Assembly: GCA_027491235.1 (NCBI GenBank)
Contig: JAIXWO010000017.1
Coordinates: 1-37,039, forward strand
Reading direction: 5' to 3'
DNA length: 37,039 bases
Origin: Sphingomonadales bacterium
GTDB taxonomy: Bacteria > Pseudomonadota > Alphaproteobacteria > Sphingomonadales > Sphingomonadaceae
Shown: positions 15,226 through 35,879 of the stretch, piece after piece
Layout of the letters: every line of letters starts with the position of its first letter
How positions within the stretch are numbered: the stretch's first letter is position 1
Notes under the pieces: generated by a model
Told to the model about the DNA's origin: nothing
Databases searched by the model: none
Seen by the model: only the letters and a program-made list of their open reading frames with translations
Translations under genes and position numbers: made by a program

Positions 15226-15231
15226 GCAGTT

Positions 15232-16227: not shown

Positions 16228-16828
16228 AGATCTTCAATCGCATTATAAAAATCTTTTCATCCAGCATGGCGACAGTGCTGAAGCCGTTCAATATGCCTCG
16301 CGAGAGTCACAAGAAAGACGCTTCAAATTCTTGGTGGAAGTCGGCGATCTGAACGGTAAGTCTATACTTGATTTTGGGTGTGGCACTGGACAACTATATG
16401 CTTATCTTCAGACCCAAGGAATTACAGTGAGCTATCATGGCGTCGAAATTGTTGACGAGTTCATTGAGCTTTGTCAAGGCAAGTATCCTGCTCAAAGTTT
16501 TGGGAAAATTGATGATTTTGAAGGCAAGAATTTTGACTACGTTTTTGTTTCCGGAGTTTTTAATAATCTTATAATAAATAATCGAGAATTTTATCAGTCA
16601 ACATTAAAAAAACTCTTTGAAATGACCCGTATAGGTCTGTCATTCAATATGATGAGTGCCTACGTTGACTATCAGGATCCCGGTCTTTTCTACGAATACC
16701 CTGAGAATGTTTTTAGTTTTCTTAAGAAAGAAATTACACCTTATGTTTCCCTTCGTAATGACTACGAGGTAAAAACTGGCGTCATTCCTTTCGATTTTAC
16801 CGTTTATGCCTACCGGGGCGGAAAGTGA
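16220..16828 (+). CDS. Class I SAM-dependent methyltransferase
   Basis: The 202-aa protein has SAM motif I (ILDFGCGTGQLYAYL, near residue 50), then YHGVEIVDEFIELC as motif II and DYVFVSGVFNNLI as the post-I region. It is a compact single-domain methyltransferase. It occupies the position where pseH is often found in pse operons, but it has no GNAT features. It overlaps pseG by 8 bases and shares a GTGA overlap with the FAD oxidoreductase gene. Acceptor unknown; a sugar intermediate or the finished nonulosonic acid is the natural guess. Confidence 0.8.
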   Translation: MIEDLQSHYKNLFIQHGDSAEAVQYASRESQERRFKFLVEVGDLNGKSILDFGCGTGQLYAYLQTQGITVSYHGVEIVDEFIELCQGKYPAQSFGKIDDFEGKNFDYVFVSGVFNNLIINNREFYQSTLKKLFEMTRIGLSFNMMSAYVDYQDPGLFYEYPENVFSFLKKEITPYVSLRNDYEVKTGVIPFDFTVYAYRGGK

Positions 16829-18755: not shown

Positions 18756-19791
18756 TGGCGTGCCAATTGGCAGGGATTACCCGCCATTTATCATTGCTGA
18801 AGTCTCGGCAAATCACAATGGTAGTCTCGATCGTGCCAGAGATATTCTGGCTGCGATTAAGGGCTCCGGCGCACAGGCTGCGAAAATACAAACTTTTACT
18901 GCTGACTCGCTTACGATTGATTGTAATAGCCCGGAATTTCTAATTGATGATGGCATTTGGAAAGGCAGGACGCTGTTTGACCTTTACCGAGAGGCGGCAA
19001 TGCCGCTTGAATGGAACAAGCTTCTTTTTGAAGAGGCCCGTCGGCTGTCTCTCACTATTTTCAGCTCACCATTTGATCATGCCGCTGTTGATTTGTTGGA
19101 AGACCTTAACGCCCCTGCCTATAAAATTGCATCGTTCGAGGCAGTCGATTTACCTTTGATCCGGTATGCGGCGAGCACTGGAAAACCTCTCATCATTTCA
19201 ACTGGGATGGCCAGTGCCGAAGAGATTGGCGAGGCGATTGCCTCGGCGCGTGAGGGTGGCTGTGAACAACTCGCTATTTTGCATTGTGTCAGCGGCTACC
19301 CGGCTCCTGCATCTGACTACCATCTCAGAACACTGCCGGATATGTCCGAGAGATTCGGTGTGGTGACTGGTCTATCCGACCACACACTTGACAACAGTAC
19401 CGCTATTGCAAGCGTCGCATTGGGTGCGTCCATCATTGAAAAACATGTCACTTTAGATCGCAAGGGTGGCGGACCGGACGATTCTTTTTCACTGGAACCA
19501 CCAGAACTGTCGCGGCTCTGTCGTGACGCGCTTACTGCATGGCAGGCGCTAGGCAGCATTAACTACCAAAAAAAATCGAGTGAAGCAGGTAACGTTCAGT
19601 TTCGTCGCTCGCTTTACTTCGTCAAAGACCTGAAGCAAGGTGAGCTGATTACGCAGGACGCGATACGAAGTATCCGGCCTGGTTTCGGCATTTCACCAAA
19701 ACATCAGGATCAAGTCGTGGGTAGCTGCGTGACCACAGACATCGTCCGTGGCACTGCAGTCCAATTTTCCCATTTCCAAGCATCAGAATGA
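18739..19791 (+). CDS. pseI: Pseudaminic acid synthase, PseI
   Basis: PseI condenses 2,4-diacetamido-2,4,6-trideoxy-L-altropyranose with phosphoenolpyruvate to pseudaminic acid. The 350-aa protein has the NeuB-family TIM barrel (FIIAEVSANHNGSLDRA, AAKIQTFTADSLT, FSSPFDHAAVDLL, ISTGMAS, GLSDHT, IEKHVTLDR, GPDDSFSL) and a C-terminal SAF/antifreeze-like domain (RRSLYFVKDLKQGELIT to the end). I choose ATG 18739 because GGAG lies 6 bases before it; the open frame extends further upstream within the WbqC gene. Last gene of the pse operon, ending 19 bases from the convergent glycosyltransferase gene. Confidence 0.94.
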   Translation: MHMTIDGVPIGRDYPPFIIAEVSANHNGSLDRARDILAAIKGSGAQAAKIQTFTADSLTIDCNSPEFLIDDGIWKGRTLFDLYREAAMPLEWNKLLFEEARRLSLTIFSSPFDHAAVDLLEDLNAPAYKIASFEAVDLPLIRYAASTGKPLIISTGMASAEEIGEAIASAREGGCEQLAILHCVSGYPAPASDYHLRTLPDMSERFGVVTGLSDHTLDNSTAIASVALGASIIEKHVTLDRKGGGPDDSFSLEPPELSRLCRDALTAWQALGSINYQKKSSEAGNVQFRRSLYFVKDLKQGELITQDAIRSIRPGFGISPKHQDQVVGSCVTTDIVRGTAVQFSHFQASE

Positions 19792-19810: not shown

Positions 19811-21460
19811 TTAGGGTGCCTCAGCCCTTAAGTCGCCCGCGATAATAGGCAGTAAGTCGACTGCAACCTGACCGTTCTCCGGCAGGTAGCACTTCGTCAG
19901 CGGGAAAAACGGGTAGCGTTTGGTGCCGAGATGAGGCCATCCCTGATTTCCAGCGAAAATCGCCCTTACAGGTACGCCAACTGCACCTGCCATCGTGTTG
20001 ACGGCAGTTGCTACTGTTACCACCTCATCAAGACATGACATTAGTGCAAAAACATTATCCAAATCATTTTGCAGATTTAAGTCAGCCCACCGAAGAATTT
20101 TGATATTGAATTTTTCTTCGACCGCGAGAATTTCGTCTTCGCATTTACCATACTGCAAATTCACCAATTGAATCCCCGGCACGGCAAAGATGTCTTCCCA
20201 GGCGTCCAGCGTTGTGTAGCCGGAGTTTCGCGTGGGCTCAATGACGCCGCTTCGCCAGCATATGCCCACCAGACGCTTTTTCTCACCACTTGGTACCACC
20301 TCTGCGATGCGGTCTCGATAAACTTGTGCGCGCTCCGGATCGACGACAATATAGGGAACCGATCGGTCGAAATCCTCAATTTTCTGACGGAAAATGCCGC
20401 ACAGTGAACCCACAGGTATTTGATAATCGTAATCGTGGTGATAGGCCGGTAATCCAGGCTTGTTGTAGTAAGCAACATCGCGGAAGTGAAATTCGGGGAA
20501 CGATCGGGCCAAACTCTTGATCAATCTCGTTTCGCACTCAACAATCACCCTACCACCGATACCGACCAGCTCTTTCAGGCAGGTGGAAAACATTAGTTCG
20601 TCACCCAAGCCCTGCTCGCGCCAGACCATCAGTGTCTTCCCATTCAAGGGCTGCCCATTCCAGCGCGGCTTCTGAAAACTGCGCTGTGGTCGACGACCTC
20701 GATTCTGATCAATATGGGAGCTGAACCCGCTCTCAAGATGACTCCAGCCTTCGGCCAGACGTCCAACTTTCAGATACTGAAAGCCGAGATTGTGACGAAG
20801 TGCCTGAATATTGCCCTCATCGTGTTTAGCCTCGGCAACGCGTAGAATTTTTTCTAACAACTCGATAGCCTCATTGATTTTGCCCTCACCCGCCAAAATC
20901 AGCGCCAGATTCGCATTGGCAGTGCCGTGACCCGGCTGAAGGGCAATCACTACCTCGAACGCGGCTTTGGCTTGCTGATTCAAACCGAGCGCGCTCATGG
21001 AGGCACCGAGATTGTTGTAGCCATTCGGGTCGGTGGGACACTTTTCTATCGCCGCCATGGCAAATTGTGCCGCCTCCTGATGGCGTTTTGCCTGAGTCTC
21101 GACCGAATGAAGGTTGTGCAAAATCTCGGCACGATCGGGGAAAGCTGCTCGCATTTGCGTCAAAAGCGCCCTCGCCTCGGTCAGTTTTCCAAGACGCATC
21201 AGGATCACCGACATCATCATGCCGACATTCAGATCTTCCGGCATCAAACGGGCCAATTCAGCCGCGTAACCGTAGGCCTCGCCGAGATTTGACAGATCCA
21301 TGTTCAGATACGCGAGACTGGAGAGAGCCTCGACATTCTTATTGTCTTTTTTATAAATTTTTTCGTACATGGTACGCGAGAACAGAAAATCGCCGCGAGC
21401 CTTGGCCTGTCTAGCCTGGGTCAATCTTCCGTCGGTGCTGCTGTGCTTTCGAGTGCTCAT
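19811..21460 (-). CDS. TPR-glycosyltransferase fusion, candidate flagellin (pseudaminic acid) glycosyltransferase
   Basis: The 549-aa protein has about six TPR units (residues about 20-240, e.g. AEILHNLHSVETQAKRHQEA, NGYNNLGASMSALGLNQQA) followed by a GT-B glycosyltransferase domain of the heptosyltransferase (GT9-like) type: VWREQGLGDELMFSTCL near residue 285, VGICWRSG, and C-terminal VVTVATAVNTMAGAVGVPV, the nucleotide-sugar site. This is the architecture of Caulobacter FlmG, where the TPR part binds flagellin and the GT part adds pseudaminic acid. It sits between the pse operon and fliC, and no Maf-type transferase is present in the window. The start has no good Shine-Dalgarno sequence. 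Role inferred from architecture and context. Confidence 0.85.
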   Translation of the reverse strand: MSTRKHSSTDGRLTQARQAKARGDFLFSRTMYEKIYKKDNKNVEALSSLAYLNMDLSNLGEAYGYAAELARLMPEDLNVGMMMSVILMRLGKLTEARALLTQMRAAFPDRAEILHNLHSVETQAKRHQEAAQFAMAAIEKCPTDPNGYNNLGASMSALGLNQQAKAAFEVVIALQPGHGTANANLALILAGEGKINEAIELLEKILRVAEAKHDEGNIQALRHNLGFQYLKVGRLAEGWSHLESGFSSHIDQNRGRRPQRSFQKPRWNGQPLNGKTLMVWREQGLGDELMFSTCLKELVGIGGRVIVECETRLIKSLARSFPEFHFRDVAYYNKPGLPAYHHDYDYQIPVGSLCGIFRQKIEDFDRSVPYIVVDPERAQVYRDRIAEVVPSGEKKRLVGICWRSGVIEPTRNSGYTTLDAWEDIFAVPGIQLVNLQYGKCEDEILAVEEKFNIKILRWADLNLQNDLDNVFALMSCLDEVVTVATAVNTMAGAVGVPVRAIFAGNQGWPHLGTKRYPFFPLTKCYLPENGQVAVDLLPIIAGDLRAEAP

Positions 21461-21624: not shown

Positions 21625-23559
21625 TTATTGCAGCAGCGAGAGGACAGACTGTGGTGCCTGGTTGGCCTGTGCCAGCATCGCGGTTGCAGCTTGCTGGATG
21701 ATCTGCGTCTTCGCCAACTGCGTGGTCTCCGTTGCGTAGTCAGTATCCTTGATACGGCTACGGGACTGCGCAGTGTTGGTGACGATGTTATCCAGGTTAT
21801 TCACCGTGCTGACCAGTCGGTTTTGGAAAGCACCTAGCTTGGCGCGGCTTGACGATATCTTCTCGATCGCATTATCAATGGTCTTGATCGCCGAAGTCGC
21901 CGAAGCTTCCGTCAACACGTTCGTGCCACTCAGTGAGGTACCACCACCGCCCGTACCGTAGGTCGCTGTATTCGTGTCGAAGTCAGCAGCACCAACATTC
22001 ATCTCACGCAAACCGTGGGAAGCATAACCACCCAGACCTGGCGCATCCGAAGACAGCTCATCACCCAGATCGATCGATATTGGGGCGTTGTTGAGCGAAT
22101 TCAGTCTGATCACCGTAGCGCCAGAATCATCAGAATAAACATCAGACCAGACACCTGTCTCGGAAGCAAAGCTGTTGATGAGATCAACCTTCTTGACCAG
22201 GGTATCTGTTGACTGACCCGAGCGCCAGATATCCACACCGTTAATCTTGACTTCGCCTTTGGCCCACTCGGTGTCTGTTCCAGTCATCGCTGCACCAACA
22301 ACCGTGTAGGCGTCGGTGACAGCTTCATTACCATCTTCAGTGCGGAAACCTTGGGTACGTACCAGTCCCAGGGATGCGAGAGCAGCCGCTTCGTCGGTTC
22401 TGGTGGCGCCGAGTGCGATGGCTGTAGTTCCGATCGAGATAGGCTGCCCATTCGTCGCTTCGAGCTTCAGGAAACCCTGGAACTGACGACCAGCACCTGT
22501 GGCAAAGCCGCTTCGACCATCATAAATCTCACCACCCGCAGTGGCTGAGGTGTCGGACACCGCGATGGTTGCACCAGAGTTGTTAAACAGCACCAGCTTG
22601 CCATCTTCGTTCAGCTTAGCCTGCACTGTCGAGGCACCACCCACCTGGTTAATCTTGTTGACCAGATCAGCCATACCGGTAGTTTCACCTACCTTGTACT
22701 CTATCGTCGAGCCCGAATCCAACAGCGTGACCGTGATCTGGAAGCTTGCATTGCTCAAAACACCGGTACCCGCCGTCTTGGCAACGACTTCATTGAATCC
22801 ACTTGCGGTAACACCCGCGTTACTACGGTTAATCGAGGTAATTACGTCATTGATGTCGAGTGCGGAATTACCAGCGCTGGTGCCCGAATTGTAGCCAGAA
22901 GTATCGCTCTTGATGATATCAATGACCGTACCGTTGATCACCAGGCTCATCGAAGTTGCCGTGGCAAATGACTCGCTAATGACCATTTCATCATCAGTGA
23001 AACCAAGACGACCGCCGATAATTACATTATTCGTTGCGCTGGAATTACCCATGCCCAGATCTTTGGTGGCAACGGAAGCAATACCCACCTTCATGATCTG
23101 ATCAGATTTATCGCCGATCTGCAGTGTCTTGTCTTGGAACGAGCCATCAAGCAGGTTGATGTTGTTGAACTGCGTCGTCTTGGCGATACGATCAATCTCT
23201 TGCTTGAGCTGATCAACTTCATCATTCAGTGCTTTACGGTCAGCAGAGTTGTTCACACCGTTGACAGACTGAACTGCGAGTTCGCGCATACGCTGGAGCA
23301 TATTCGTGACTTCGTCCATCGCACCTTCAGCTGTCTGCATCAGCGAAATACCATCATTCGCATTGCGGATAGCCATCGAAAGGCCACGAACCTGGGAGTC
23401 CATACGTGTGCTGATCGACAGACCAGCAGCATCATCTTTAGCGCTATTGATACGGCTACCGGTCGAGAGACGCTGCATGGCAGTCTCAAGAGCACGGTTG
23501 TTTTTAACGATCGAATCCTGCGCGACCATTGACTTGACGTTAGTGTTAATTACAGACAT
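21625..23559 (-). CDS. fliC: Flagellin (main filament protein)
   Basis: The 644-aa protein has canonical flagellin ends: SVINTNVKSMVAQDSI, AMQRLSTGSRINSAKDDAAGLSISTRM and MRELAVQSVNG at the N-terminus (about residues 1-155); ISSSRAKLGAFQNRL, SRSRIKDTDYATETTQLAKTQIIQQAATAMLAQAN at the C-terminus (from about 555). The central 400 residues are a Ser/Thr/Gly-rich surface domain with a Flagellin_IN-like unit (KINGVDIWRSG). TAGGAG lies 8 bases before the ATG. A clear sigma-28 promoter (23700-23726) with a leader of about 130 bases and a strong terminator make it a monocistronic, late, highly expressed gene. Of the three flagellins it looks the most standard. Confidence 0.96.
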   Translation of the reverse strand: MSVINTNVKSMVAQDSIVKNNRALETAMQRLSTGSRINSAKDDAAGLSISTRMDSQVRGLSMAIRNANDGISLMQTAEGAMDEVTNMLQRMRELAVQSVNGVNNSADRKALNDEVDQLKQEIDRIAKTTQFNNINLLDGSFQDKTLQIGDKSDQIMKVGIASVATKDLGMGNSSATNNVIIGGRLGFTDDEMVISESFATATSMSLVINGTVIDIIKSDTSGYNSGTSAGNSALDINDVITSINRSNAGVTASGFNEVVAKTAGTGVLSNASFQITVTLLDSGSTIEYKVGETTGMADLVNKINQVGGASTVQAKLNEDGKLVLFNNSGATIAVSDTSATAGGEIYDGRSGFATGAGRQFQGFLKLEATNGQPISIGTTAIALGATRTDEAAALASLGLVRTQGFRTEDGNEAVTDAYTVVGAAMTGTDTEWAKGEVKINGVDIWRSGQSTDTLVKKVDLINSFASETGVWSDVYSDDSGATVIRLNSLNNAPISIDLGDELSSDAPGLGGYASHGLREMNVGAADFDTNTATYGTGGGGTSLSGTNVLTEASATSAIKTIDNAIEKISSSRAKLGAFQNRLVSTVNNLDNIVTNTAQSRSRIKDTDYATETTQLAKTQIIQQAATAMLAQANQAPQSVLSLLQ

Positions 23560-23740: not shown

Positions 23741-24124
23741 TTAAAGCTCTTCATTGAAGATAATTCCCTTCATATCCTCAATGCTGTGCGCCATTTTTAC
23801 GGCCGCTTCGCTCGGGATCTGACGAACGACCTCGCCTGAATTTGTATTTTTAACAACAATAATGAACTTGTTAATACGCTCATCCAACGAGAAATGCAGA
23901 TCACGCCGAGTATCTTTCACCATCTGATTCAGACGCTCGATCATTTCCTGCATCGCTTCACGTTGCTGCTCGGGATTAAACTTAGGTTTGGCAGCTTGTT
24001 CGGTCTTGGCTGGCATCGAGGGCCTGAGAGGCACTTGATTGGCAGGGATACTTTTCGCTGCCTGCATATCCTCCCGCACGCCAGCTTGCATCGCAGTTGT
24101 GACTGATTTCAGAAGATCGCCCAT
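23741..24124 (-). CDS. flaG: FlaG-family flagellar protein
   Basis: The 127-aa protein ends with the FlaG pattern: LNQMVKDTRRDLHFSLDERINKFIIVVKNTNSGEVVRQIPSE in pieces (LHFSLDE, FIIVVKNTNSGEVVRQIPSE, then MKGIIF). The first 60 residues are polar and probably flexible. FlaG influences filament length in other bacteria. I choose ATG 24124 since AGGGG lies 8 bases before it; the longer frame starts at GTG. Between the octapeptide-repeat gene and fliC. A candidate sigma-28 promoter lies at 24217-24243. Confidence 0.9.
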   Translation of the reverse strand: MGDLLKSVTTAMQAGVREDMQAAKSIPANQVPLRPSMPAKTEQAAKPKFNPEQQREAMQEMIERLNQMVKDTRRDLHFSLDERINKFIIVVKNTNSGEVVRQIPSEAAVKMAHSIEDMKGIIFNEEL

Positions 24125-24216
24125 ACAAAACACCCCTTTTGGAATTCAACACCTACAAGTCATGCGAGTGGCCGGTTATCCCGAGCCTGATCAGAAAACC
24201 TTCATGCTTATTCGAT

Positions 24217-24506: not shown

Positions 24507-27500
24507 TCAGTAATTCAAATATTGAATCAAGCTGGCAGCTTGCAGCGCGTCAATCTGATCGGAGGTCAGACTTAGAATCTGCGTTGTCGTCAACGCTGCC
24601 ACTTGCACCGAACTGAGATTGTCAACGACACCCGTCGTAATACCCTGCAGGAAGTCGGTGCTCAGTTGCGCAACCTGAGTCGCATCAAAGCCTGCTAACT
24701 GATCTGAGCTCAGGATTCCGCCTTGCGCAGAAGTCAGAGAGGCGAGCTGTGTCTCGCTCAGCTTGCTTAACTGCGCTGTACTGAGTTTTTCGAACAAGGT
24801 CGAATCTAGGCTACCGAGCTGGGTAGTCGTCAGTGCGCGGATTTGTGCCGTACCCAGCTGGCTGATCTCGTCGGTACCTATCTGGTTGAGATCCTCCGTC
24901 TCGAAAGATGCGATCTGCGCCGTTGTCAGCTTGACGAGCTGATCCGAGCTCAATGCAGCGACTTGGTCACTGGTCAAACCAGCGATCTGCGCGTTTGTTA
25001 GGCCACGCAACTGCGTTGTAGAAAGCTTCTCGATTGCATCAGTGAGCAGAGAGTTCAGTTTTGCTACCGTCAAGCTACCCACCTGGCTCGACGTCAATCC
25101 AGCAATCTGGTCGGTTGTCAGAGCGCCTAACTGATCCGATGTTAAGTTGTTAAGCTGACTGCTGGTGAGTTTGGATATCTGGCTTGTCGTCAATCCACCA
25201 AGTAGTCCGGTATCAAGCGCAGCCAACTGGCTTGTCTTCAACGCGACTATCTGAGCCGTACCCAATGCAGCAATCTCATCCGATGACAGCGCGTTCAAAT
25301 CTTCTGTCTCGAGGGCAGCAACCTGAGCAGTGGAAAGCTTGACTAGCTGGTCAGATCCAAGTGCCCCGATCTGATCCGATGTCAGTCCAGCCACCTGAGC
25401 CGTGGTCAGGCCTCGCAGCTGAAGTGTCGATAGATTCGCAATAAAATCAGACGACAGTGAGGCCAGCTTCGCCACCGTAACTGAAGCCAGCTGGGCTGAT
25501 GTCAAACCAGCCACTTGGTCAGTCGTCAGAGATTCGAGCTGCGCGCTGGTCATGCTATTAATCTGACTGCTGGTAAGCCTTGAAACCTGCGATGTTGTCA
25601 TTGCCGACAACAAGGCAGTGTCAAGTTTTGGAAACTGTACCGTTGTCAGTGCCGCTACCTGAGCGGTGCCGAGAGCAGCAAGCTCATCAGACGTCAGCGC
25701 GTTGAGATCTTCGGTCTCGAATGCTGCGATCTGTGCCGTCGAAAGCTTCGTCAGCTGATCTGAACCAAGCGCGGCTACCTGATCCGACTTCAGTCCGACA
25801 ACCTGTGCTGTCGTCAAACCACGCAATTGTTCTGTGCTCAACTTCGACACAAAATCAGTGGACAGAGCTTGAAGTTTGCTGACTGTAAGAGCTGCAATCT
25901 GCGCAGAGCTCAAACCACCGACCTGAACAGTTGTCAACACATCGAGTTGTGCGGTCGTCAAGTTGTTAAGTTGGTCAGTCGTCAGACGGCTGATTTGGGC
26001 TGTGCTCATGGAGGACAGCAAGGCCGTATCCAAAGCGGCGAGCTGGGCAGTTTTCAGTGCGGCGACCTGCGCGGTGCCCAAAGCATTGATTTCGTCAGAA
26101 CTGAACTGATTTAAATCATCTGATTCAATTGCGGCAACCTGTGCAGTCGAGAGCTTTTCAATCTGAACCGAAGTAAGCGCCGATGCCTGATCTGTGGTCA
26201 GAGCAGCGATCTGAGCAGCAGTAATTCCAGCCAGTTGCGCGCTCGACAAATTAGCGATGAAATCAGATGACAAAAGAGCCACCTTAGATGCCGTCATATT
26301 TCTGATTTGCGCAGACGATAAACCTGCCACCTGATCGGTCGTCAATGCGGCTAACTGGTCTGATCCAAAATTGTTCAACTGGTCACTCGTTAGCCTTGAA
26401 ATCTGCGCGCTAGTCATTGCAGCCAGTAGTTCTGTGCTCAGAGTCGAGATTTGACTGGTCTTAAGTGCGGCTATTTGTGCTGTAGTGAGCTGAGTTATTT
26501 CGTCTGAAGCGAATAAGTTCAGATCGTCAGAGCCCAGTGCGCCAAGCTGTGCTGTACTGAGATTCGAGACTTGGCTCGACGTTAAAGCAATAATTTGATC
26601 TGAGGTAAGACCATTGATGTGATCCGTAGTGAGCCAACGAATTTGTGAGCTATTCAAAGCTGCGATCACATCACTGGACAGTGCCGCAACCTTAGCCACT
26701 CCCAATGTTGAGACTTGCGCTGATGACAAACCAGCCACTTGCGCAGACAACAAATCACCAATACGCGAAGCACTCAAGCTGTTGAGTTGTGCACTCGTAA
26801 GTTTGTTAACCTGAGCTGACGTCATTGCAGCAAACAAATCGCTACCAAGATTAGACAAATGAGCGTTAGTCAAAGCACTCACTTGCTGGGTAGTGAACGC
26901 CGCAATTTGATCTGATGTCAGGAAATTTAGCTGGGTCGATGACAAATTATTGATTTGCGCCGTAGACAAACGCACCACCTGCGCAGTCGTGAGAGAGCTC
27001 AGCAGCTCTGTTGCGAGATTATCGAGCTGCGTATTTGTCAATACTGATACCTGCAGTGTTGACAGCGCCTGAATCTCGTCCGAGCTGAACTTGTTCAGAT
27101 CATCAGATTGCATCGTAGCGATCTGTGCCGTGGTCAGCTTAGAAATTTGCGCCGAAGTCAGTGCCTCTGCCTGCTCCGTCGTCAAACCAACGATCTGATC
27201 CGTCGTCAGGCCTGCCAACTGAGCCGCAGATAAGGCTGACACTGCATCTGTTGAAATAGTCGCCATATTGGCAACGGTGAGCTTACTCAACTGGGCTGAA
27301 GTCAAGCCTACAATCTGAACCGAAGTTAATGCACTAAGTTGGTCTGTGGTCAGGTTGTTGAGCTGACTTGTACTTAGTCTAGAAACTTGTAGCGTGGTCA
27401 GTGCACTCAGCAACGACGTATCCAGAGCGGCAAGCTGAGATGTCTTCAATGCACTGATTTGCGCCGTTGTCAGAGCAACCACTTGATCCGAGGCAAGTGC

Positions 27501-29576
27501 GTTGAGCTGGTCGGACGACAAATTAGAAATCTGACTTGTGCTGAGGCGAATCACCTGAGCCGTGCTGAGGGCACCGAGCAACTCAGTCGCAAGCTTGTTC
27601 AGCTGGGCAGTTTTTAATGCCGAGATCTGGGCAGCACTCATCGCCTGAATTTCATCAGAACTGAACTGATTCAAATCATCACTCTCCAGCGCGGCGATTT
27701 GCGCGGTGCTCAAGAGAGCTATCTGCACGCTAGTCAATGCCTGCGCTTGATCTGTGGTCAACCCAACGATCTGCTCAGTCGTAAGACCCTGCAACTGTGT
27801 CGTGGTCAGCTTTTCAATCGCGTCGGATGAAAGGAATGCCAGGTTGGCTGCGGTCAGCCTACCAATCTGAGCAGAGGTCAAACCAGCAACCTGATCGGTT
27901 GTTATGGCACTCAGCTGATCGGACGTTAGACTATTTAGCTGGCTGCTGCTCATCTTCGAAAGCTGCAAGCTGGTCAACTTGCTCAGCATTTCAGTAGCCA
28001 GCGACGCCAACTGCGTGTTCCTAAGTGCCGCAACCTGGGCGGTCGTCATAGCAGCGAGCTGATCGGAGCTCATCTCATTGAGCTGCCCAGTTATGAGATT
28101 TGAAATTTGCGCAGTACTTAGCCGTACCACTTGAGCGGTTGTGAATGAAGTAAGTAACTCTGTTGCAAGGTTATTGAGTTGCGAGCTTGTCAGAGCAGCC
28201 AACTGCGAATTAGTTAATGCTTGTATCTCGTCAGATGAAAATTGATTCAGATCTTCTGATTCAAGGCTCGCAATCTGCGAGGTGCTCAGTGCGCTGATCT
28301 GAACTGAACTTAACGCAGCTGCTTGAGCTGAGCTAAGACCAACAATCTGCGCTGTCGTTAAACCGCGAAGCTGAGCTGTACTGAGAACAGCGATCGCATC
28401 TGTTGCAATCAAGCTGAGCTTACCAACATTTAAGCTTCCAAGTTGCGCTGAAGTGAGACCACCCGCCTGAACCGAACTCAAAGCGGCTAGCTGATCGGAA
28501 TTCAGACTATTCATCTGACTCGAGCTTAGCCTGGATAACTGCAATGTTGTGAACTCGGTAAACAATGTGCTGTCGAGCGCCTCAAGCTGCGATGTTTTGA
28601 GTGAAGAAACCTGCGCGGTCGTTAACGCACTAATTTGGTCAGAACTCAAAAAATTCAGCTGATCCGAGCTCAAGTTAGCCACCTGTGCCGTCGTCAGTTT
28701 ATTCACTTGCTCTGTCTTTAGCGAACTCAACAAGTCAGAATTCAGCGCATTCAGCTGGGTTGTTTTCAAGGCTGCGATCTGGACCGAAGAAAGAGAACGG
28801 ATCTGATCTGATTGCAGCAAATTCAAAGCCTCTGTGGTGAGATTGTTGATCTGGGCCGTAGTCAATTTCCCGAGCTGATCAGTAGTAAAAGCGCTGATCA
28901 GCGATGCATCCAGATTATTCAGTTGCGAGCTACCCAAAGCTCGAACCTGATGAGTTGCTAATGCCGCTATTTCATCCGAGGTGAACTGATTCAAATCTTC
29001 AGTTTCCAGCGCTGCAATCTGGCTGGTCGTTAAAGTCGCGATTTCGTCAGAAGTCAGTGCACCCACCTGCGCGGTAGTCAGCTTCGCTATCTGTGTCGTT
29101 GATAGCCGGATCATCTGGGCGCTACTGAGTGCAAGCAAACCATCCGTCGTTATCGACGATATGACATTGGTAGAAAGGCTGGCAATCTGGGCTGTGGAAA
29201 TATAGCTAGCCGTGGTGTCAAGTGCAGCTACCTGACTGGTACCAAAATTATTAATCTGCGTATAGGACATGACAGCAAGTTGCCCCTGCCGCATCCCGGT
29301 AATCGCTGTGGTGGTGATAGCAGATATCTGGCTGTTAGTAAGCTTTTTGATTGCATCGGACGAAATGGCACCCAGCTGGTCTGAGTTAAACAGGGCCATT
29401 GCCTGAGTACTTATTACAAAACTGTCCCCCTTGATCGCCCTGATTTGCTCAGTCTTAAGCGCAGCCACCTGGCTAGTCTTGAGACCGGCCAGATCTGAAG
29501 ACCTTAAGCGACTCATTTGGGCCGTGGTCAAATCTGCAACCGAAGCGGCCGACATGTTGGTAAAAATGGAGGACAT
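24507..29576 (-). CDS. Giant octapeptide-repeat protein (1689 aa) in the flagellar locus
   Basis: After about 189 residues of the same repeat with two one-residue slips, residues 190-1685 are 187 octapeptides in perfect register, consensus L-(S/T)-(S/T)-x-Q-(I/L/V)-x-(A/G/N). There is no signal peptide, membrane segment or cysteine, and no recognisable enzyme domain; the protein ends LIQYLNY. AAGAGG lies 5-6 bases before the ATG. Proteins with long LTTAQIAAL-type repeats exist in databases with uninformative names, but I know of no function. The pattern S/T-x-x-Q followed by hydrophobics suits short capped helices in a solenoid; a beta-solenoid like ice-nucleation proteins is an alternative. 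The gene lies between fliD and flaG/fliC, with a candidate sigma-28 promoter. Confidence 0.9.
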   Translation of the reverse strand: MSSIFTNMSAASVADLTTAQMSRLRSSDLAGLKTSQVAALKTEQIRAIKGDSFVISTQAMALFNSDQLGAISSDAIKKLTNSQISAITTTAITGMRQGQLAVMSYTQINNFGTSQVAALDTTASYISTAQIASLSTNVISSITTDGLLALSSAQMIRLSTTQIAKLTTAQVGALTSDEIATLTTSQIAALETEDLNQFTSDEIAALATHQVRALGSSQLNNLDASLISAFTTDQLGKLTTAQINNLTTEALNLLQSDQIRSLSSVQIAALKTTQLNALNSDLLSSLKTEQVNKLTTAQVANLSSDQLNFLSSDQISALTTAQVSSLKTSQLEALDSTLFTEFTTLQLSRLSSSQMNSLNSDQLAALSSVQAGGLTSAQLGSLNVGKLSLIATDAIAVLSTAQLRGLTTAQIVGLSSAQAAALSSVQISALSTSQIASLESEDLNQFSSDEIQALTNSQLAALTSSQLNNLATELLTSFTTAQVVRLSTAQISNLITGQLNEMSSDQLAAMTTAQVAALRNTQLASLATEMLSKLTSLQLSKMSSSQLNSLTSDQLSAITTDQVAGLTSAQIGRLTAANLAFLSSDAIEKLTTTQLQGLTTEQIVGLTTDQAQALTSVQIALLSTAQIAALESDDLNQFSSDEIQAMSAAQISALKTAQLNKLATELLGALSTAQVIRLSTSQISNLSSDQLNALASDQVVALTTAQISALKTSQLAALDTSLLSALTTLQVSRLSTSQLNNLTTDQLSALTSVQIVGLTSAQLSKLTVANMATISTDAVSALSAAQLAGLTTDQIVGLTTEQAEALTSAQISKLTTAQIATMQSDDLNKFSSDEIQALSTLQVSVLTNTQLDNLATELLSSLTTAQVVRLSTAQINNLSSTQLNFLTSDQIAAFTTQQVSALTNAHLSNLGSDLFAAMTSAQVNKLTSAQLNSLSASRIGDLLSAQVAGLSSAQVSTLGVAKVAALSSDVIAALNSSQIRWLTTDHINGLTSDQIIALTSSQVSNLSTAQLGALGSDDLNLFASDEITQLTTAQIAALKTSQISTLSTELLAAMTSAQISRLTSDQLNNFGSDQLAALTTDQVAGLSSAQIRNMTASKVALLSSDFIANLSSAQLAGITAAQIAALTTDQASALTSVQIEKLSTAQVAAIESDDLNQFSSDEINALGTAQVAALKTAQLAALDTALLSSMSTAQISRLTTDQLNNLTTAQLDVLTTVQVGGLSSAQIAALTVSKLQALSTDFVSKLSTEQLRGLTTAQVVGLKSDQVAALGSDQLTKLSTAQIAAFETEDLNALTSDELAALGTAQVAALTTVQFPKLDTALLSAMTTSQVSRLTSSQINSMTSAQLESLTTDQVAGLTSAQLASVTVAKLASLSSDFIANLSTLQLRGLTTAQVAGLTSDQIGALGSDQLVKLSTAQVAALETEDLNALSSDEIAALGTAQIVALKTSQLAALDTGLLGGLTTSQISKLTSSQLNNLTSDQLGALTTDQIAGLTSSQVGSLTVAKLNSLLTDAIEKLSTTQLRGLTNAQIAGLTSDQVAALSSDQLVKLTTAQIASFETEDLNQIGTDEISQLGTAQIRALTTTQLGSLDSTLFEKLSTAQLSKLSETQLASLTSAQGGILSSDQLAGFDATQVAQLSTDFLQGITTGVVDNLSSVQVAALTTTQILSLTSDQIDALQAASLIQYLNY
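24522..29009 (-). repeat. 187 in-frame 24-bp units with 7/17/24/31-unit higher-order structure
   Basis: Every 24 bases encode one octapeptide, with no insertion or deletion over 4488 bp. A marker octad, LE(T/S)(E/D)DLNQ or a close variant, recurs at octads 1, 32, 56, 80, 104, 121, 138, 155 and 172, whose upper coordinates are 29009, 28265, 27689, 27113, 26537, 26129, 25721, 25313 and 24905. The spacings are 31, 24, 24, 24, 17, 17, 17 and 17 octads. They differ by multiples of 7, and a 7-octad (56-aa) sub-unit is repeated within the longer ones. Repeats are well diverged at the DNA level, largely through synonymous changes. Confidence 0.95.
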
Positions 29577-30079: not shown

Positions 30080-31888
30080 ATGCCGACTAATGCCTCTCCA
30101 ACATCCATGGATATCAATTCGATATTGGAAGCAGGCAGGAAGCTCGAAAGCTGCGGTGCCGTATCTCAAGCTATTGAGCTGTTTCGGGAATGGTTGAAAG
30201 TCAACGCCAATATCGAATTGTCGTTTCTTATATGGTATGAATTTGGCCGGCTGCTGCAGAAGGAGGGAAACTATCCCAAAGCAGAGAGCTCGTTTCGCGC
30301 CGCCCTGGAACAAAAGCCGCAATTCGTAGAGGCCTTACTGGCGCTCGGAAAATCCCTGGAATCACAAGGCAAACTGGATCAGGCAATAGCTATCTGGCAA
30401 TCCGCCATTCCCTCTGAAGCCCTTCAAATCGATCTGCTTAATAATATTGCAAGATTGATGGACCAAACGCATCGACCAGAGGACGCTGAACTCGCATTAG
30501 TGCGCAGCCTAAAATTAGATAACAAGCAAGATGCCGTCGTAACAACCCTTTTGCAACAAAGGCAGAAACTATGCCGTTGGCCAGTCATCTCCACAGAAAT
30601 CTGTGCTGATATTGAATTTCAGAAGGAGCACATCGGACCCCTGATGTCATTGGCATTAACTGATGATCCGACAGAAAATCTAGCTTCAGTTAACCGCTTC
30701 CTGAAAAGTAAACAGCTCGACAAGATTTCACCAAGCTCGATAAAACGTGGCCAATTTTATAGAGGCCATACCAAAATCCGAGTTGGCTTCCTCTCTGCAG
30801 ATTTCAGGCTACATGCCACCAGTATTTTTTTCGCCCCACTGATCGAAGGCCTGGACAGAACGCAATTCGAGATTTACCTGCTGGACATCACCACCGCATC
30901 AGACTCGGTTTTTGAAATGCGCAAGCGCTTGATCAGCGTGGCCGATCAGCATGTTCCACTTCAGGATCTCGATGACGAAAGGGCGATCAAGCACATACAG
31001 GAAATGGAAATCGATGTTCTGGTTGATCTGGCCGGACTCACTGCAGGCGCGCGTCCGGCAATAGTTGCAGCACGCGCAGCCCCCTTGCAGATGGCCTATA
31101 TCGGCTTTCTTGCCAGCTGTGGCATGCCCTCCGTAGACTACATCCTGACGACCAAGGATCTCTTCCCAAAGAAAAAGCAAAAGGGCTTCACTGAAGAACC
31201 TCTGTATCTGGCGGGCACCTATCTGGTCGTCGACCCTGCAACAGAATTGCTGCCGGGTGTCACACGTGCTCAATTTAATCTGCCGGAGCAAGGCATGATC
31301 TATTGCGCGCTTCTGAATTCATACAAAATCACCCCCGAGATGTTTGGCGCCTGGATGAATATTCTGCGAGCAGTACCAGACAGCGTGCTTTGGCTGGTGG
31401 ATGAAAACCCGACAACTCGCCGAAATCTGGAATCTTATGCGAGTGCACATGGTATCGATCCAGGCAGATTACATTTCAGCCAAAGAGTCCATCCGGCACA
31501 ATACCGGTCACAACTGGCGCTTGCAGATTTATTTCTGGACACGTCGCCTTATGGAAATGGCGCCACAGCCCGCGATGCCGTGATCGCGAATTTGCCGATC
31601 CTGACTAAGCCCGGCCGAACCATCATGTCAAGATTGTCCGCTCATGTAATGAAATCAATGGGTCTCACCGAACTTATCGTTGACGACATCGCCTCTTATG
31701 AAGCACGGGCGATTGAACTCGGCAATAACCAATCAATGGTAAAAAAAATCAAAACAAAGATGCTGGCGGCCAGAGCAAGCAGCCTACTTTTTGATAAAGA
31801 AACATTTACCAAAAATTTCGGCGACGCCATTTTATTGGCCGTCAATCAGACGCAACATCAGCCGACAACGTCAAAAAAATCTTCATAG
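30080..31888 (+). CDS. TPR-containing O-GlcNAc-transferase-like (GT41/SPINDLY) glycosyltransferase
   Basis: The 602-aa protein has TPR units (about residues 15-150, e.g. WYEFGRLLQKEGNYPKAESSF, VEALLALGKSLESQGKLDQA) followed by a GT41 catalytic region: RVGFLSADFRLHATSIFFAP near 235, DVLVDLAGLTAGARP, QMAYIGFLASCGMPSVDY, LHFSQRV, LFLDTSPYGNGATARDA, LTKPGRTIMSRLSAHVM and GLTEL. These are the conserved stretches of bacterial OGT-like enzymes, which add a sugar to Ser/Thr of proteins in the cytoplasm. The His in DFRLHA corresponds to the catalytic-site His of the family. It is the first gene of a plus-strand cassette with 31903 and 32858. The likely acceptors are flagellar proteins. Confidence 0.92.
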   Translation: MPTNASPTSMDINSILEAGRKLESCGAVSQAIELFREWLKVNANIELSFLIWYEFGRLLQKEGNYPKAESSFRAALEQKPQFVEALLALGKSLESQGKLDQAIAIWQSAIPSEALQIDLLNNIARLMDQTHRPEDAELALVRSLKLDNKQDAVVTTLLQQRQKLCRWPVISTEICADIEFQKEHIGPLMSLALTDDPTENLASVNRFLKSKQLDKISPSSIKRGQFYRGHTKIRVGFLSADFRLHATSIFFAPLIEGLDRTQFEIYLLDITTASDSVFEMRKRLISVADQHVPLQDLDDERAIKHIQEMEIDVLVDLAGLTAGARPAIVAARAAPLQMAYIGFLASCGMPSVDYILTTKDLFPKKKQKGFTEEPLYLAGTYLVVDPATELLPGVTRAQFNLPEQGMIYCALLNSYKITPEMFGAWMNILRAVPDSVLWLVDENPTTRRNLESYASAHGIDPGRLHFSQRVHPAQYRSQLALADLFLDTSPYGNGATARDAVIANLPILTKPGRTIMSRLSAHVMKSMGLTELIVDDIASYEARAIELGNNQSMVKKIKTKMLAARASSLLFDKETFTKNFGDAILLAVNQTQHQPTTSKKSS

Positions 31889-31902: not shown

Positions 31903-32733
31903 ATGAAAAAGATTTACGTCCACCAGATTTTTTATGACTCAGAATCACGAGCCAAAATCCAGCCCGGCTTTATTCCGATCGACAATACCAATAGCGCGCA
32001 TCGTGACTGGTTCGAGTTTTGGGTAATACTGAATTTTCTTAGAAATAATCCCTTAGAAGAAAATGCCTGGTATGGATTTTTGTCACCGAAATTCCTTGAA
32101 AAAACTGGCATTGACTCCACCGCAATTTTGCAAGCAATCGAGGCGAATTATGATTCTATGGACATTGCTGTGTTCAGCACCGCCTGGGATCAACTTGCCT
32201 ACTTTATTAATCCTTGGGAGCAAGGTGAAGTTTGGCACCCCGGCCTCACCGCCCTGACGCAAGGTTTTTTAGCAGATCACGGCTTCACCACAGATCTAAG
32301 AAATATTGTGACTGACTCTGCCAATTCAGCTTTCTCAAACTATGTGATCGCAAAAAAAGAGTTCTGGATGACCTGGTACGATTTGGCGGAAAAATTCTTT
32401 GCTTATGTGGAAACCAATGCAGAACAGCATCCGGAGTTTACAAAAACCACAAGCTATGGTTCCAACATAAATCAGTACCCAATGAAAACCTTCATCCAGG
32501 AACGATTTACCAGTCTTATTATGGCCGCCGGTAATTACAAAGTGCTTTTCGCAGATCAGAGCAGCAGCCGCCCTATTTTTTCTCGAATATTCAGCGATGA
32601 TTCAAAAACAAGGAATATGCTTCAGACCTGTGATTTGATGAAATCAAAGTACCGTGAAACTCTGGATCCGGCATATCTGGACATGTATTGGCGAATACGT
32701 AAAGGAATTTCATACTACCCACCCGTGATGTAA
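31903..32733 (+). CDS. Conserved protein of unknown function next to glycosyltransferase
   Basis: The 276-aa protein has IYVHQIFYDSESRAKIQPGFIPIDN, then HRDWFEFWVILNFLRNN and AWYGFLSPKFLEKTG. From memory, similar proteins with a (D/E)WFEYWPI-like motif and YGFFSPKF-KEKTG occur beside glycosyltransferases in surface-sugar clusters; I cannot give a reaction. PWEQGEVWHPGL and a long helical region follow, without SAM-binding or nucleotide-binding loops. It starts 14 bases after the GT41 gene and is presumably co-transcribed with it, so it may act on, or with, the sugar transferred by that enzyme. Confidence 0.7.
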   Translation: MKKIYVHQIFYDSESRAKIQPGFIPIDNTNSAHRDWFEFWVILNFLRNNPLEENAWYGFLSPKFLEKTGIDSTAILQAIEANYDSMDIAVFSTAWDQLAYFINPWEQGEVWHPGLTALTQGFLADHGFTTDLRNIVTDSANSAFSNYVIAKKEFWMTWYDLAEKFFAYVETNAEQHPEFTKTTSYGSNINQYPMKTFIQERFTSLIMAAGNYKVLFADQSSSRPIFSRIFSDDSKTRNMLQTCDLMKSKYRETLDPAYLDMYWRIRKGISYYPPVM

Positions 32734-32857: not shown

Positions 32858-33628
32858 ATGATCAGTAAAAAAAATACATTTGCCGCTATTCACGACAAAA
32901 AACAGGGGAAAGCCAGTGATAAATGGGAGTCGTATCTTGAGTTCTACGACGAGCTGTTTACACCCCTGAAAAAAAATCCGATCACGATGCTGGAAATCGG
33001 CGTACAGAACGGAGGGTCGCTGGAAACTTATGCCGAGTATTTCACAAAAGGCAAAAAATTTGTGGGCTGCGATATCAACGAGCGCTGCAGGAATTTAAGT
33101 TACGAAGATGAGCGAATCGCAGTCGTGGTGGGAAACGCGAATACTGAAGCAGCAGCCAGTGAAATCCTTCAACACAGCAATGATTTTTCCATCATTATTG
33201 ATGATGGATCGCACGTATCTTTAGACATCATCAACTCATTTTTGATTTACTTCCCTGCCTTGCAACCAGGAGGCATTTACGTCATCGAAGATACTCATAC
33301 GCTTTACCATCAGGCTTTTGGCGGTGGAATTACCAATGAAAGATCTGCGATTGCTTTTTTCAAGAAACTTGTCGATGTCGTCAGCTTTGAGTGGTGGCAT
33401 GAAAGCTCCACGATTCAAACACATTTATCAACTTTTTTCTTGCAAAATATTCCGGAATTTATCACCGATGGATGGATTGAATCTGTAGAGTTTCGAAATT
33501 CGGTCATCGTGGTAAGAAAATCAAAAAAAGCCGGACATAACAAACTAGGGCAGCGCATCATCCGAGGCGCCGATTTCTCGGTTAACCCTCTGGACTCAGC
33601 GGCTATTCAGAATCACAAGCCATTCTGA
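32858..33628 (+). CDS. Class I SAM-dependent methyltransferase (CmcI/macrocin-type)
   Basis: The 256-aa protein has SAM motif I in MLEIGVQNGGSLETYAEYF (residues about 45-65), FVGCDINERC, and FSIIIDDGSHVSLDIINSF followed by LQPGGIYVIEDTHT. The IDDGSH...GGxYVIED signature is typical of the cephalosporin-hydroxylase/macrocin O-methyltransferase-like group, often sugar O-methyltransferases with a metal-binding Asp-Asp. GGAG lies 6 bases before the ATG. It ends the cassette that begins with the GT41 gene, so methylation of a transferred sugar is a reasonable guess. Confidence 0.85.
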   Translation: MISKKNTFAAIHDKKQGKASDKWESYLEFYDELFTPLKKNPITMLEIGVQNGGSLETYAEYFTKGKKFVGCDINERCRNLSYEDERIAVVVGNANTEAAASEILQHSNDFSIIIDDGSHVSLDIINSFLIYFPALQPGGIYVIEDTHTLYHQAFGGGITNERSAIAFFKKLVDVVSFEWWHESSTIQTHLSTFFLQNIPEFITDGWIESVEFRNSVIVVRKSKKAGHNKLGQRIIRGADFSVNPLDSAAIQNHKPF

Positions 33629-33725: not shown

Positions 33726-35879
33726 TTAATTTTTACTGCCGTTCATCGCATCAAATGAGGATTTCAGACGCGCCATCGTGCTATTGGCCTGGCCGACGAA
33801 GCCGTCGAGGATCGAAAAGGTCTTCGTATAGCGCTCGAGCAGTTTTTTCATCCGCTCATCCAGCTTTTCGAGATCTAGTTTGTAACGATCAACATCCTTT
33901 TGGGCACTGAACGCCTGCGATTGAATATACCCGGTTGGCCGACTGATCTCTGTGATGCGCTTCACCGCATCGCCAGCCAGACCCTGGGCAGCGCTTGTGA
34001 AAGAGCTTTTGGTCTCAGTATTGTTAGTAAGAAAAGTGACCACATCTTCAAAATTTTTTGAAGTCGCTTCGGAGAACTTACTTTGATCAAATTGTAAAAC
34101 ACCTGTTTTATCTACTGACACACCCAAGTCACGCAAGGCTCGATAACTTTTGCCTGGGGAGCGTGAGTCCTCAAGAAACAGTCCACGCAACTGGGTTTTT
34201 ACTAACCTGATCGTGGAGTCATTGGCCAAAGAACCGCTATAGACATCCTCAGGATCGTCTTTGTTTTTAGGGCCTGAAAGAATAGCAAAATCAGACATTG
34301 CATCATTGTATGATTTGACCAGAGCAGCAACTTTTTCCTTCAAGGCTGCGGTATCCCGACTTAATGTAATGACCGCAGGCGCGTTTGCCTGGGTTACATT
34401 CAGCAAATCAATTTTCAAGCCTGAGACGGCATCACTCACCACATTTTCAGAGCGAAAAATAGTTACTCCATCAATCACTAACTCGGCATCACCTGCAGAT
34501 TGAAGGCGATTTGAAAAATTGAGTGTGGTCGCTGAGGTTCTGGCTACATAAGCTTGCGACACTGTTTCAACAGGATCGGCTATCACGTCAGCTGAGATTT
34601 TGGTCGGGTCATCTGGCGTTATCGAAAATACTAGGCTTGCATCACCATCTGCCTCTGTGTAATCCGCTTGCAAACTGCCATCAGACCCTATTGAAAAACG
34701 TCCGGGTGCAGCAGCATTTAGCGCATCTTTAATATTTTGCGTAATATCAGTAGAATTAGCCGCGGCAGCAATAGGGATAGTTACGGGTGAAAAAGCGAGT
34801 GACCCACCGGGATTAATCGTGACAGTCCCGGCTTCAGTGGCATTACCAAACGTCCATTTTTGCTTCTTGGTGGCGCCTGTTGTTAGCTCAGCACCTGCAA
34901 CAAACGACCTGGTTGTGGCCACCCCGGTGATTGAATTCGACGCGTCGGTATAGACCTCGGTCGGCACATTTCCCTCGGTAGCCGCATAAGTTATGGTGAG
35001 GGTTCCATCGTTGTTATTTGTGAAAATCCGGCCGCTGCCTCCCGCTTTGAGCGCATCAGCATCAAGCGCGGCCTTTACTTTGGCGGCCACTGCCTCTTTC
35101 GTGTCACCTTGAGTAACGTTCACAGTGACCCCTGCGATCGCCAAGGATCCCGTATTCATGGCACCACGAAAACTAATAGTCTGCCGTTCACTGACTCCCG
35201 TACCATCGTCGGTCGTAAAGCTAAAACTGTTCTTCGCGCCCGTGGGACCGGTTACAACAATTTGGTAAGGGGAAGCGCTTCCATCGCCGGTATTGACCAG
35301 TTGAGCGTTCAAGCCAATATTGGCATCTTTAATCGCCTGAACAATTCCCTTGGGCGTGGTTTTCCCGTCCGGAATTTCGATACCTTGTGACTTGCCGTCC
35401 ATATTCAGACGCAAAATGAAGCGATTGCCGCTATTCAGGGAAACGGTTTCAGACGCAAATCTCGGCGACAAGCTACGCTGCGGTTGCGCCCGAGACTTTA
35501 CTTCGATCTCATGAACACCGGGTGAGGCGCCAGTGGTAGACGTCACCGTAACAGCCGATTGCAAGCTGCTGGTTGCGGTCACCAAGTCGACCTTGGAGGG
35601 TGACTGCAGTGATTCAAATGCTGTTTTGACCATATTCAGCGATGCCAGCATCGCTGAGTAACCAGATATTCTGGACTCACTTTTGGAAATATTTCGGTTG
35701 ATGCTGTCTACACGTGGTGCCTTTTCTGCATCCACCAGATTTTGGGCGAGCGAACCCATGTCGACGCCAGAGCCGGTACCCAGCTTGGTAATGAGACTGG
35801 TCGCAGCACTCTTTGTTGCCTTCGATGCTGCGCTAGTCGATGATGCTGAATTAGAAACTGATCCAGTCGTTAGTGCCAC
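33726..35879 (-). CDS. fliD: Flagellar cap protein FliD, enlarged
   Basis: FliD caps the filament and helps flagellin subunits insert. The 717-aa protein has the FliD N-terminal domain (ITKLGTGSGVDMGSLAQNLVDAEKAPRVDSINRNIS in pieces, residues about 30-70), a central TLNFSNRLQSAGDAELVIDG and the FliD C-terminal domain (ALKEKVAALVKSYNDAMSDF ... YTKTFSILDGFVGQANSTMARLKSSFDAM). Common FliD proteins have about 450-480 residues; the extra length is an insert with two related modules (about 34950-35155 and 34605-34840) also found in the giant flagellin. The start is GTG, with AAGGA 7 bases before it. A strong sigma-28 promoter lies 55 bases upstream. Confidence 0.95.
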   Translation of the reverse strand: MALTTGSVSNSASSTSAASKATKSAATSLITKLGTGSGVDMGSLAQNLVDAEKAPRVDSINRNISKSESRISGYSAMLASLNMVKTAFESLQSPSKVDLVTATSSLQSAVTVTSTTGASPGVHEIEVKSRAQPQRSLSPRFASETVSLNSGNRFILRLNMDGKSQGIEIPDGKTTPKGIVQAIKDANIGLNAQLVNTGDGSASPYQIVVTGPTGAKNSFSFTTDDGTGVSERQTISFRGAMNTGSLAIAGVTVNVTQGDTKEAVAAKVKAALDADALKAGGSGRIFTNNNDGTLTITYAATEGNVPTEVYTDASNSITGVATTRSFVAGAELTTGATKKQKWTFGNATEAGTVTINPGGSLAFSPVTIPIAAAANSTDITQNIKDALNAAAPGRFSIGSDGSLQADYTEADGDASLVFSITPDDPTKISADVIADPVETVSQAYVARTSATTLNFSNRLQSAGDAELVIDGVTIFRSENVVSDAVSGLKIDLLNVTQANAPAVITLSRDTAALKEKVAALVKSYNDAMSDFAILSGPKNKDDPEDVYSGSLANDSTIRLVKTQLRGLFLEDSRSPGKSYRALRDLGVSVDKTGVLQFDQSKFSEATSKNFEDVVTFLTNNTETKSSFTSAAQGLAGDAVKRITEISRPTGYIQSQAFSAQKDVDRYKLDLEKLDERMKKLLERYTKTFSILDGFVGQANSTMARLKSSFDAMNGSKN

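Follow-up and report, generated by a model that had tools for sequence, protein, structure and literature searches.

What kind of protein is encoded by a gene that consists almost entirely of eight-residue repeats, and what might such a protein do among flagellar genes? The question is raised by contig JAIXWO010000017.1 (assembly GCA_027491235.1, labelled Sphingomonadales), whose whole stretch of 37,039 nucleotides was analysed and is referred to below as the window. On its minus strand, at 24507..29576, an open reading frame (ORF) encodes a protein of 1,689 amino acids (aa), hereafter the repeat protein. Using family searches, structure prediction, period analysis and genomic context we (i) assign this protein to the ALTTAQ repeat family and describe its predicted alpha-screw fold, (ii) propose a rule by which its super-units are built, and (iii) identify its recurrent gene partners, which lead us to the tentative reading, held at a little under an even chance, of a fibre that is linked to the flagellum, exported and probably O-glycosylated.

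The repeat protein is by sequence a member of the ALTTAQ repeat family (PF20080), with a score of 917 bits against a cut-off of 26.4 (E-value 2.3e-284) in the Pfam scan, which supplies a name and no function. The family is already known to Pfam, function unknown; the super-unit rule and the gene partners are newly described here. NCBIfam has no model for the repeat protein, and in the open-licence PMC literature no paper naming ALTTAQ or PF20080 was found, and for HeliScrew (the name of a structural match described below) none or none relevant by title. The Pfam models CAAP1, Sigma70_r4_2, SWC7 and EF-hand_11 scored over their whole-protein cut-offs, but no single stretch reached an E-value of 1 and they were judged repeat artefacts; the remaining Pfam matches, including DUF5865 (one stretch at E-value 1), fell under their cut-offs, and the flagellin N-terminal domain PF00669 was not among the matches. 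A protein on a plasmid of a Spiroplasma endosymbiont, a wall-less bacterium (CP117533.1, 13402-16290), matches the repeat along 96% of the query at 25% identity.

Structure prediction with AlphaFold2 makes it very probable that each octapeptide (octad) forms one short helix, and the long alpha-screw fold is well supported. Residues 1151-1430, modelled from an alignment with five companion rows, gave a pLDDT of 91.7 and a pTM of 0.79; all octads but one (34 of 35) took the form of a 4-6-residue helix, and there was no strand. A like picture, also without strand, was obtained for residues 1-300. The octad sequence pattern is the same as that of HeliScrew4 (PDB 9zem), a 120-residue chain taken as a design from its name only and compared by sequence alone (E-values 1e-14 to 3e-19, the latter with a profile). 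All seven Foldseek matches below an E-value of 0.001 were mesothelin (E-value 7e-6 at a TM-score of 0.37). PMC10035497 describes mesothelin as a glycosylated, adhesive protein whose 24 short helices stack in nine layers into a right-handed solenoid. This ARM/HEAT-like solenoid has short helices like those of the modelled repeat protein and differs from it in its irregular repeats and eukaryotic origin; mesothelin was also absent from the 27 profile-search matches at an E-value of 10. Leucine-rich-repeat proteins matched by sequence in the PDB were judged to be leucine-periodicity noise because the model contains no strand. Against the predicted fold count the low TM-scores of the mesothelin matches (0.23-0.37), the lower confidence for residues 1-300 (mean pLDDT 77.6, pTM 0.60; the other four models from 73 down to 39) and the possible overconfidence of AlphaFold2 on repeats.

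The same evidence bears on an ice-nucleation-like or other beta-solenoid protein, a likeness raised by a sequence-only reading of the window on account of eight-residue repeats with longer fidelity. Public annotations of ALTTAQ proteins vary between 'ICE nucleation protein' (Cereibacter, L061 11998-16683), heme utilization protein and hypothetical protein. We nevertheless regard a beta-solenoid as extremely improbable and have set it aside on the family scan and the predicted fold: none of the 10 Pfam families reaching an E-value of 1 or less is the ice-nucleation family, both models consist of short alpha-helices without strand, and HeliScrew4 is matched.

The octads follow a strict order, all coordinates given here being on the minus strand. 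The 187 octads counted earlier at residues 190-1685 do run without a slip in the octad layout, and counting from residue 127 brings the single-register array to 195 octads (residues 127-1686; 24519..29198), the terminal one of which, QAASLIQY, is degenerate. Upstream of it the N-terminal octads (residues 1-126; 29199..29576) show two register slips, placed by eye near residues 54 and 126; in this part no signal peptide was apparent by eye and no other domain was seen. A pattern search located xDLN markers at residues 193, 441, 633, 825, 1017, 1153, 1289, 1425 and 1561, exactly at the previously described spacings of 31, 24, 24, 24, 17, 17, 17 and 17 octads. Together with unit comparison these markers delimit a 31-octad super-unit (residues 191-438; 28263..29006; about nine of the putative turns introduced below), three 24-octad super-units (residues 439-1014; 26535..28262; about seven turns apiece) and four 17-octad super-units (residues 1015-1558; 24903..26534; about five turns apiece), the last group including the better-modelled stretch.

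Within the super-units the order persists. Glutamine (Q) occupies octad position 4 in 132 of the 187 octads, I, L or V position 5 in 175, L position 8 in 153, and S or T position 1 in 132 and position 2 in 166; the five octads per 17-octad unit said to lack the Q stand at positions 0, 1, 4, 10 and 11 in all four complete units. In the 24-octad units non-Q octads recur at 0, 1, 4, 11, 17 and 18 (3/3; the third unit has three extra), and in the longer units LL-type octads are spaced 7 apart. Three of the four longer units contain adjacent 7-octad blocks that are 46-64% identical; the super-unit at residue 439 has no block match of 45% or more. These data uphold two earlier suggestions, that the array changed in length by whole 7-octad blocks and that the unit has fixed internal faces. 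At a lag of 17 octads the self-match reaches 0.45, the median being 0.31, and over the 17-octad core the super-units are 47-69% identical to each other as protein and 50-65% as DNA. The 1,689 residues comprise 457 Ser/Thr, no cysteine, one proline and one tryptophan, with an excess of 63 acidic over basic residues.

Why should the spacings be 17, 24 and 31? We consider it likely, from the periodicities described below, that about 3.41 octads (~27 residues) make one superhelical turn and that super-units are whole turns. It is well supported that 17 octads correspond to five periods and 7 octads to two, which we read as superhelical turns; on that reading, spacings of 17 + 7n leave the faces aligned. 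In the period analysis each octad was treated as one sample and significance was taken from the 99th percentile of shuffles. For the repeat protein the non-Q, acidic-position-3 and charge features peaked at 3.41-3.42 octads with a power of 29-37 (34-37 for two of the features) against a shuffle level of 9-10; because the shuffles destroy the super-repeat, what counts is which harmonic dominates. Among 23 proteins analysed in this way, 16 had at least one of six features with its top peak at 3.37-3.45 octads over the shuffle level; other peaks lay close to 17/2, 17/7 or 2.0 octads. The lag analysis of the same 23 placed the best period at 3.38-3.45 in 16; in the other seven it lay at 8.45-8.53 (three proteins; half of 17), 8.98, 5.49, 4.45 and 3.53. 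For 36 family members (two near-duplicates excluded beforehand, some proteins ending at the edge of the retrieved stretch) the dominant lags of 48-272 residues fitted whole multiples of 27.15 residues with a mean cosine of 0.89, the maximum among 2,000 random sets of octad multiples being 0.45. Two of the lags, 134 and 217 residues, cannot be divided into whole octads, yet amount to 4.9 and 8.0 turns. The three-level order of 8, 56 and 136-248 residues proposed earlier is better described as octad, turn of ~27 residues and whole turns, the relatives with 134 and 217 aa retaining whole turns although they break the octad arithmetic. Lags of 7 and 17 octads recur in many relatives.

Several points weigh against the turn rule. 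In a repetitive array the shuffles make a peak look stronger than it is. A 3.4-octad peak was lacking in seven of the 23 proteins (four from G124/G164, three from Pseudomonas), and in the lag analysis only 11 of the 23 exceeded the shuffle level near 3.4. A 48-aa lag in two proteins is not a whole turn, the relatives are homologous and not statistically independent, and the figure of 3.4 octads per turn derives from sequence alone. The five non-Q positions are on their own weak evidence of a face (all within 7 of 17 angular slots; ~0.04 by hand count at one preset frequency), and the case is carried by the period and lag analyses. All members being homologous and 7 and 17 recurring in many, the rule could be a by-product of tandem duplication and not of structure, with lags of 17, 24, 10 and 7 octads inherited from one ancestral array; we think this rather unlikely, as the non-octad lags also lie near whole turns and the charge and acidic features repeat near 3.4 octads in arrays of several super-unit lengths.

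The array also appears to be maintained. A sister locus (L010) shares the gene order over the compared stretch (flgK, flgL, fliD, methyltransferase, 276-aa protein, GT41, ALTTAQ, flaG, flagellin) at a DNA identity of 78-86%, and its orthologue of the repeat protein is of equal length without indel, 91% identical, with a dN of 0.048 against a dS of 0.535, and purifying selection is therefore indicated. Each super-unit is 85-96% identical to its own counterpart in L010 and at most 74% to any other L010 unit, so the super-units are old and have stayed distinct. The suggestion of selection on a continuous solenoid is borne out by this comparison and by the helical octads of the models.

The window, which is the whole contig C11 of the genome bin G000, has a GC content of 49%, the sampled larger contigs C5, C9 and C22 of that bin 60-62%, and C9 has its own flagellar cluster (62% GC). 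Tetranucleotide frequencies of the window correlated with those of nine stretches of another metagenome-assembled genome (MAG), G799, at r 0.86-0.93, with C5, C9 and C22 at 0.77-0.79, and with G000 contig C4 at 0.86. Along with composition, a match to the same locus (L009; 99.996% identical over 22.5 kb) ties the window to G799, whose 60-kb contig continues, by eye, with fliF, fliG, fliH, fliI and fliJ. The window contig is thus probably mis-binned in G000, its likely host being G799, labelled Oxalobacteraceae. Because of this, tallies of kinship centred on G000 have no bearing on the contig; the survey of G000 relatives as carriers (1/60 and 1/397, the sole positive being G000 itself) was set aside as uninformative. 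A search centred on G799 found ALTTAQ in 45 of the 294 genomes of the host's family, G799 and G800 included.

A recurrent partner of ALTTAQ genes is a glycosyltransferase. A tetratricopeptide repeat (TPR) plus GT41 (O-GlcNAc-transferase-like) enzyme, proposed here as the modifying enzyme, is encoded on the plus strand at 30080..31888 (PF13844, E-value 5.5e-60), divergently and head-to-head with the repeat gene at a distance of 504 bp. The two PF13844 matches of G000 were taken as pieces of this single GT41 gene; G799 has that gene and one more. Eighteen of 20 ALTTAQ genomes carried GT41, on the same contig within ~11 kb of the ALTTAQ gene or match in at least ten (G000, G405, G426, G104, G132, G100, G093, G136, G195 and G164). 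A class-wide search found five ALTTAQ-positive genomes out of 385, G000 included, and in three of the four others (G954, G979, G1042) GT41 lay within 5 kb. In the host's family 21 of the 22 ALTTAQ genomes examined for GT41 and flagellins, mostly high scorers, carried GT41; ALTTAQ positions were visible in 17, and in 16 of these (not G1266) both genes lay on one contig within 25 kb, the GT41 gene being single in 8 of the 16. On plasmids ALTTAQ occurred in 63 records and GT41 in 93, of which the best 60 of each were compared: by eye at least 27 of the 63 ALTTAQ records were also among the GT41 matches listed, with a distance of no more than 10 kb in 26; near-duplicates from Cereibacter account for 11 of these records. 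Of 22 replicons selected for containing the two genes (17 plasmid records and five genomes), 21 had their matches at most 10 kb apart; the sole exception, UR115, had no GT41 within 10 kb (one of three GT41 places examined).

The pairing is by no means universal, and the following count against it. Nine of the 20 genomes showed no one-contig pairing among the matches listed, seven being fragmented with GT41 on other contigs and two lacking GT41; in G176 the distance is up to ~25 kb. No GT41 was found in G252 or G446 of the 20-genome set or in G925 of the class set. Second ALTTAQ copies elsewhere in G979, G954 and G405 are without GT41, the other 33 of the 60 ALTTAQ plasmid records compared had none among the GT41 matches listed, and two Shinella plasmids and those of Thioclava and Roseateles had no annotated GT41 within 10 kb of ALTTAQ. 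The carrier status of G252 was itself rejected, its match consisting of 29 pattern matches in a 4,152-aa ORF and not of a true ALTTAQ array. Overall, the partnership is strong as genomics and putative as chemistry, the ALTTAQ protein being, with somewhat better than even probability, the substrate of the GT41 enzyme. To our knowledge, bacterial GT41 enzymes seldom have known substrates. In family f52 (G100, G160, G164, G187) two genomes have ~50 GT41 matches apiece, and GT41 occurs in other members within ORFs of 2,300-3,800 aa. Roseateles XES5 (L070 6426-9638) and Shinella H4-D48 (L071 5714-8991) have ALTTAQ genes that lack an annotated GT41 and have in common a neighbourhood of katG and a peroxide regulator. 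Next to the window's GT41 gene, on the same strand, follow a 276-aa protein (31903..32733) without Pfam or NCBIfam match at an E-value of 0.001, a partial homologue of which comes after ALTTAQ-GT41 in Rhodovastum, and a methyltransferase-like protein (32858..33628; PF13578, barely over its cut-off) with a possible part in glycan modification.

Genes of type I exporters form a second group of partners. Seven of 13 genomes (G426, G104, G132, G100, G093, G136, G195) had HlyD-family genes no more than 5 kb from the ALTTAQ gene or match, and ABC plus HlyD genes adjoin it in Cereibacter, two Pseudomonas plasmids, G954, G1042 and G1438. Cereibacter sphaeroides 2.4.1 carries a plasmid copy with GT41 alongside, and in strain MBTLJ-20 the ABC and HlyD genes are annotated as its neighbours. 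It speaks against such a route that no type I exporter genes were seen in the window; type I HlyD homologues occur elsewhere in G799. We regard export of the ALTTAQ rod by a type I system as an evenly balanced proposition. The G000 contigs C24 and C27 hold HlyD matches scoring as in G799.

The surroundings of the repeat gene in the window are flagellar. On its one side lie, on the minus strand, flaG (23741..24133; PF03646, E-value 5e-22), a 644-aa flagellin (21625..23559; PF00669, E-value 7.7e-50) and a 549-aa TPR protein (19811..21460), matched by TPR models only, which we tentatively take to be an FlmG-type flagellin glycosyltransferase. Beyond these follow, on the plus strand, a pseudaminic-acid cluster with further genes (11219..19791; PseB, PseC, PseF and PseI over NCBIfam cut-offs) and, on the minus strand, a giant flagellin-like protein of 1,340 aa (6124..10146; PF00669, E-value 2.2e-41); the latter and a second very large one of 700 aa (1728-3830) have long inserts between the flagellin ends. 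On the other side, past GT41, the minus strand encodes a 717-aa FliD flagellar cap (33726..35879; all NCBIfam matches FliD or hook-associated protein 2, under their cut-offs) and an FlgL-type hook-filament junction protein (35977..36900; PF00669 match, named from sequence). The repeat gene occupies the same place, between flaG-flagellin and GT41-fliD-flgL, in L010. Small genes at the contig end (293-1653) may be akin to an antitoxin of AbiEi type and a toxin with a PIN domain. In the host MAG a 332-aa protein encoded close to fliJ (L091 5764-6762) carries imperfect YGDAxxMxxSRGGND repeats, RTX-like by eye.

A separate ALTTAQ paralogue of 2,648-3,343 aa, with a 134-aa super-unit, was found in eight flagellar loci of the host's family. 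It is preceded at no more than 90 bp by an ORF of 275-341 aa, which was FliR by Pfam in both cases tested (FliP was confirmed in two), and it faces flgL-flgK, BLAST matching FlgL after it in three of the eight loci and FlgK in five. An FlgL-sized PF00669 match lay near the paralogue in seven of the eight loci and on the ALTTAQ contig in two more genomes. In Rhodovastum, ALTTAQ-GT41 is near the flagellar export genes flhB-fliR-flhA. A flagellar role of the repeat protein is thereby suggested, and we advance it with reserve, as slightly less than an even bet. It is weakened by the other 19 of the 20 genomes, which had no flagellin within 50 kb of ALTTAQ among the matches listed, and by the flagellar-locus copies retrieved from the host's family, which no GT41 adjoins.

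The first of these observations fits another reading, an adhesin of the cell surface or of biofilms, glycosylated and secreted by a type I system, which simply happens to lie within an island of flagellar and glycosylation genes and plays no part in the flagellum. GT41 and HlyD/ABC genes stand beside ALTTAQ, with no flagellar genes seen, in Cereibacter, the two Pseudomonas plasmids, G426, G104, G954 and G1042, and in Rhizobium CCGE531 the neighbourhood contains curli genes. That reading, a serious possibility at roughly one chance in three, does not account readily for a distinct paralogue with its own super-unit following fliR and facing flgL-flgK, or for the flagellar place kept in the window and L010 despite their DNA divergence. 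The position directly after fliR, that between flaG and fliD in the window, and the Rhodovastum locus could also point to a protein that is secreted by the flagellar export gate or serves it as a ruler, measuring or capping the filament from inside the export channel. This is improbable, since a folded rod would be hard to pass through the channel and many relatives accompany type I exporters; moreover, a C-terminal LAA[KR] tail is common to seven of the eight flagellar-locus copies (G1393 has LAAAK) and to G1438b, which lies beside ABC/HlyD genes, suggesting one route (G1399b has it too, G1399a not).

Under the preferred reading of a flagellum-linked, glycosylated fibre, the 195 octads would wind into ~57 turns which, with an assumed rise of ~1 nm per turn, would give a rod of ~55-60 nm; whole-turn super-units would hold the odd octads (non-Q, acidic) to a single side of it. 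The paired GT41 enzyme would add sugars to Ser/Thr in the cytoplasm. Afterwards the rod would be exported, more probably by a type I system than through the flagellar gate, and would coat or join the flagellar filament or cell surface. With somewhat less than an even chance, ALTTAQ proteins may more broadly constitute a class, so far undescribed, of alpha-screw fibres that are extracellular and glycosylated, with a turn of ~27.15 residues, super-repeats of whole turns that leave one face aligned, dedicated GT41 enzymes and exporters, and a flagellar-locus sub-class decorating or sheathing the filament. An anonymous repeat family thereby becomes a testable system consisting of a rod whose turn can be predicted, the glycosyltransferase paired with it and an exporter. 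In this system the rods would be candidate GT41 substrates with hundreds of Ser/Thr, and the whole-turn rule offers a direct way to study how the faces of long solenoids stay untwisted during evolution.

Known systems provide two comparisons, both by description only. In HMW1/HMW1C and the serine-rich repeat adhesins a repetitive protein that is exported has a cytoplasmic glycosyltransferase and an exporter dedicated to it; these adhesins are likened to the ALTTAQ proteins by these gene partners, whereas folds and export routes differ. In Magnetococcus MO-1 a large glycoprotein (>350 kDa) forms, according to PMC7175107, a calcium-dependent helical sheath around the flagellar bundle, and we retain this sheath protein as a parallel to the repeat protein, not as its identity.

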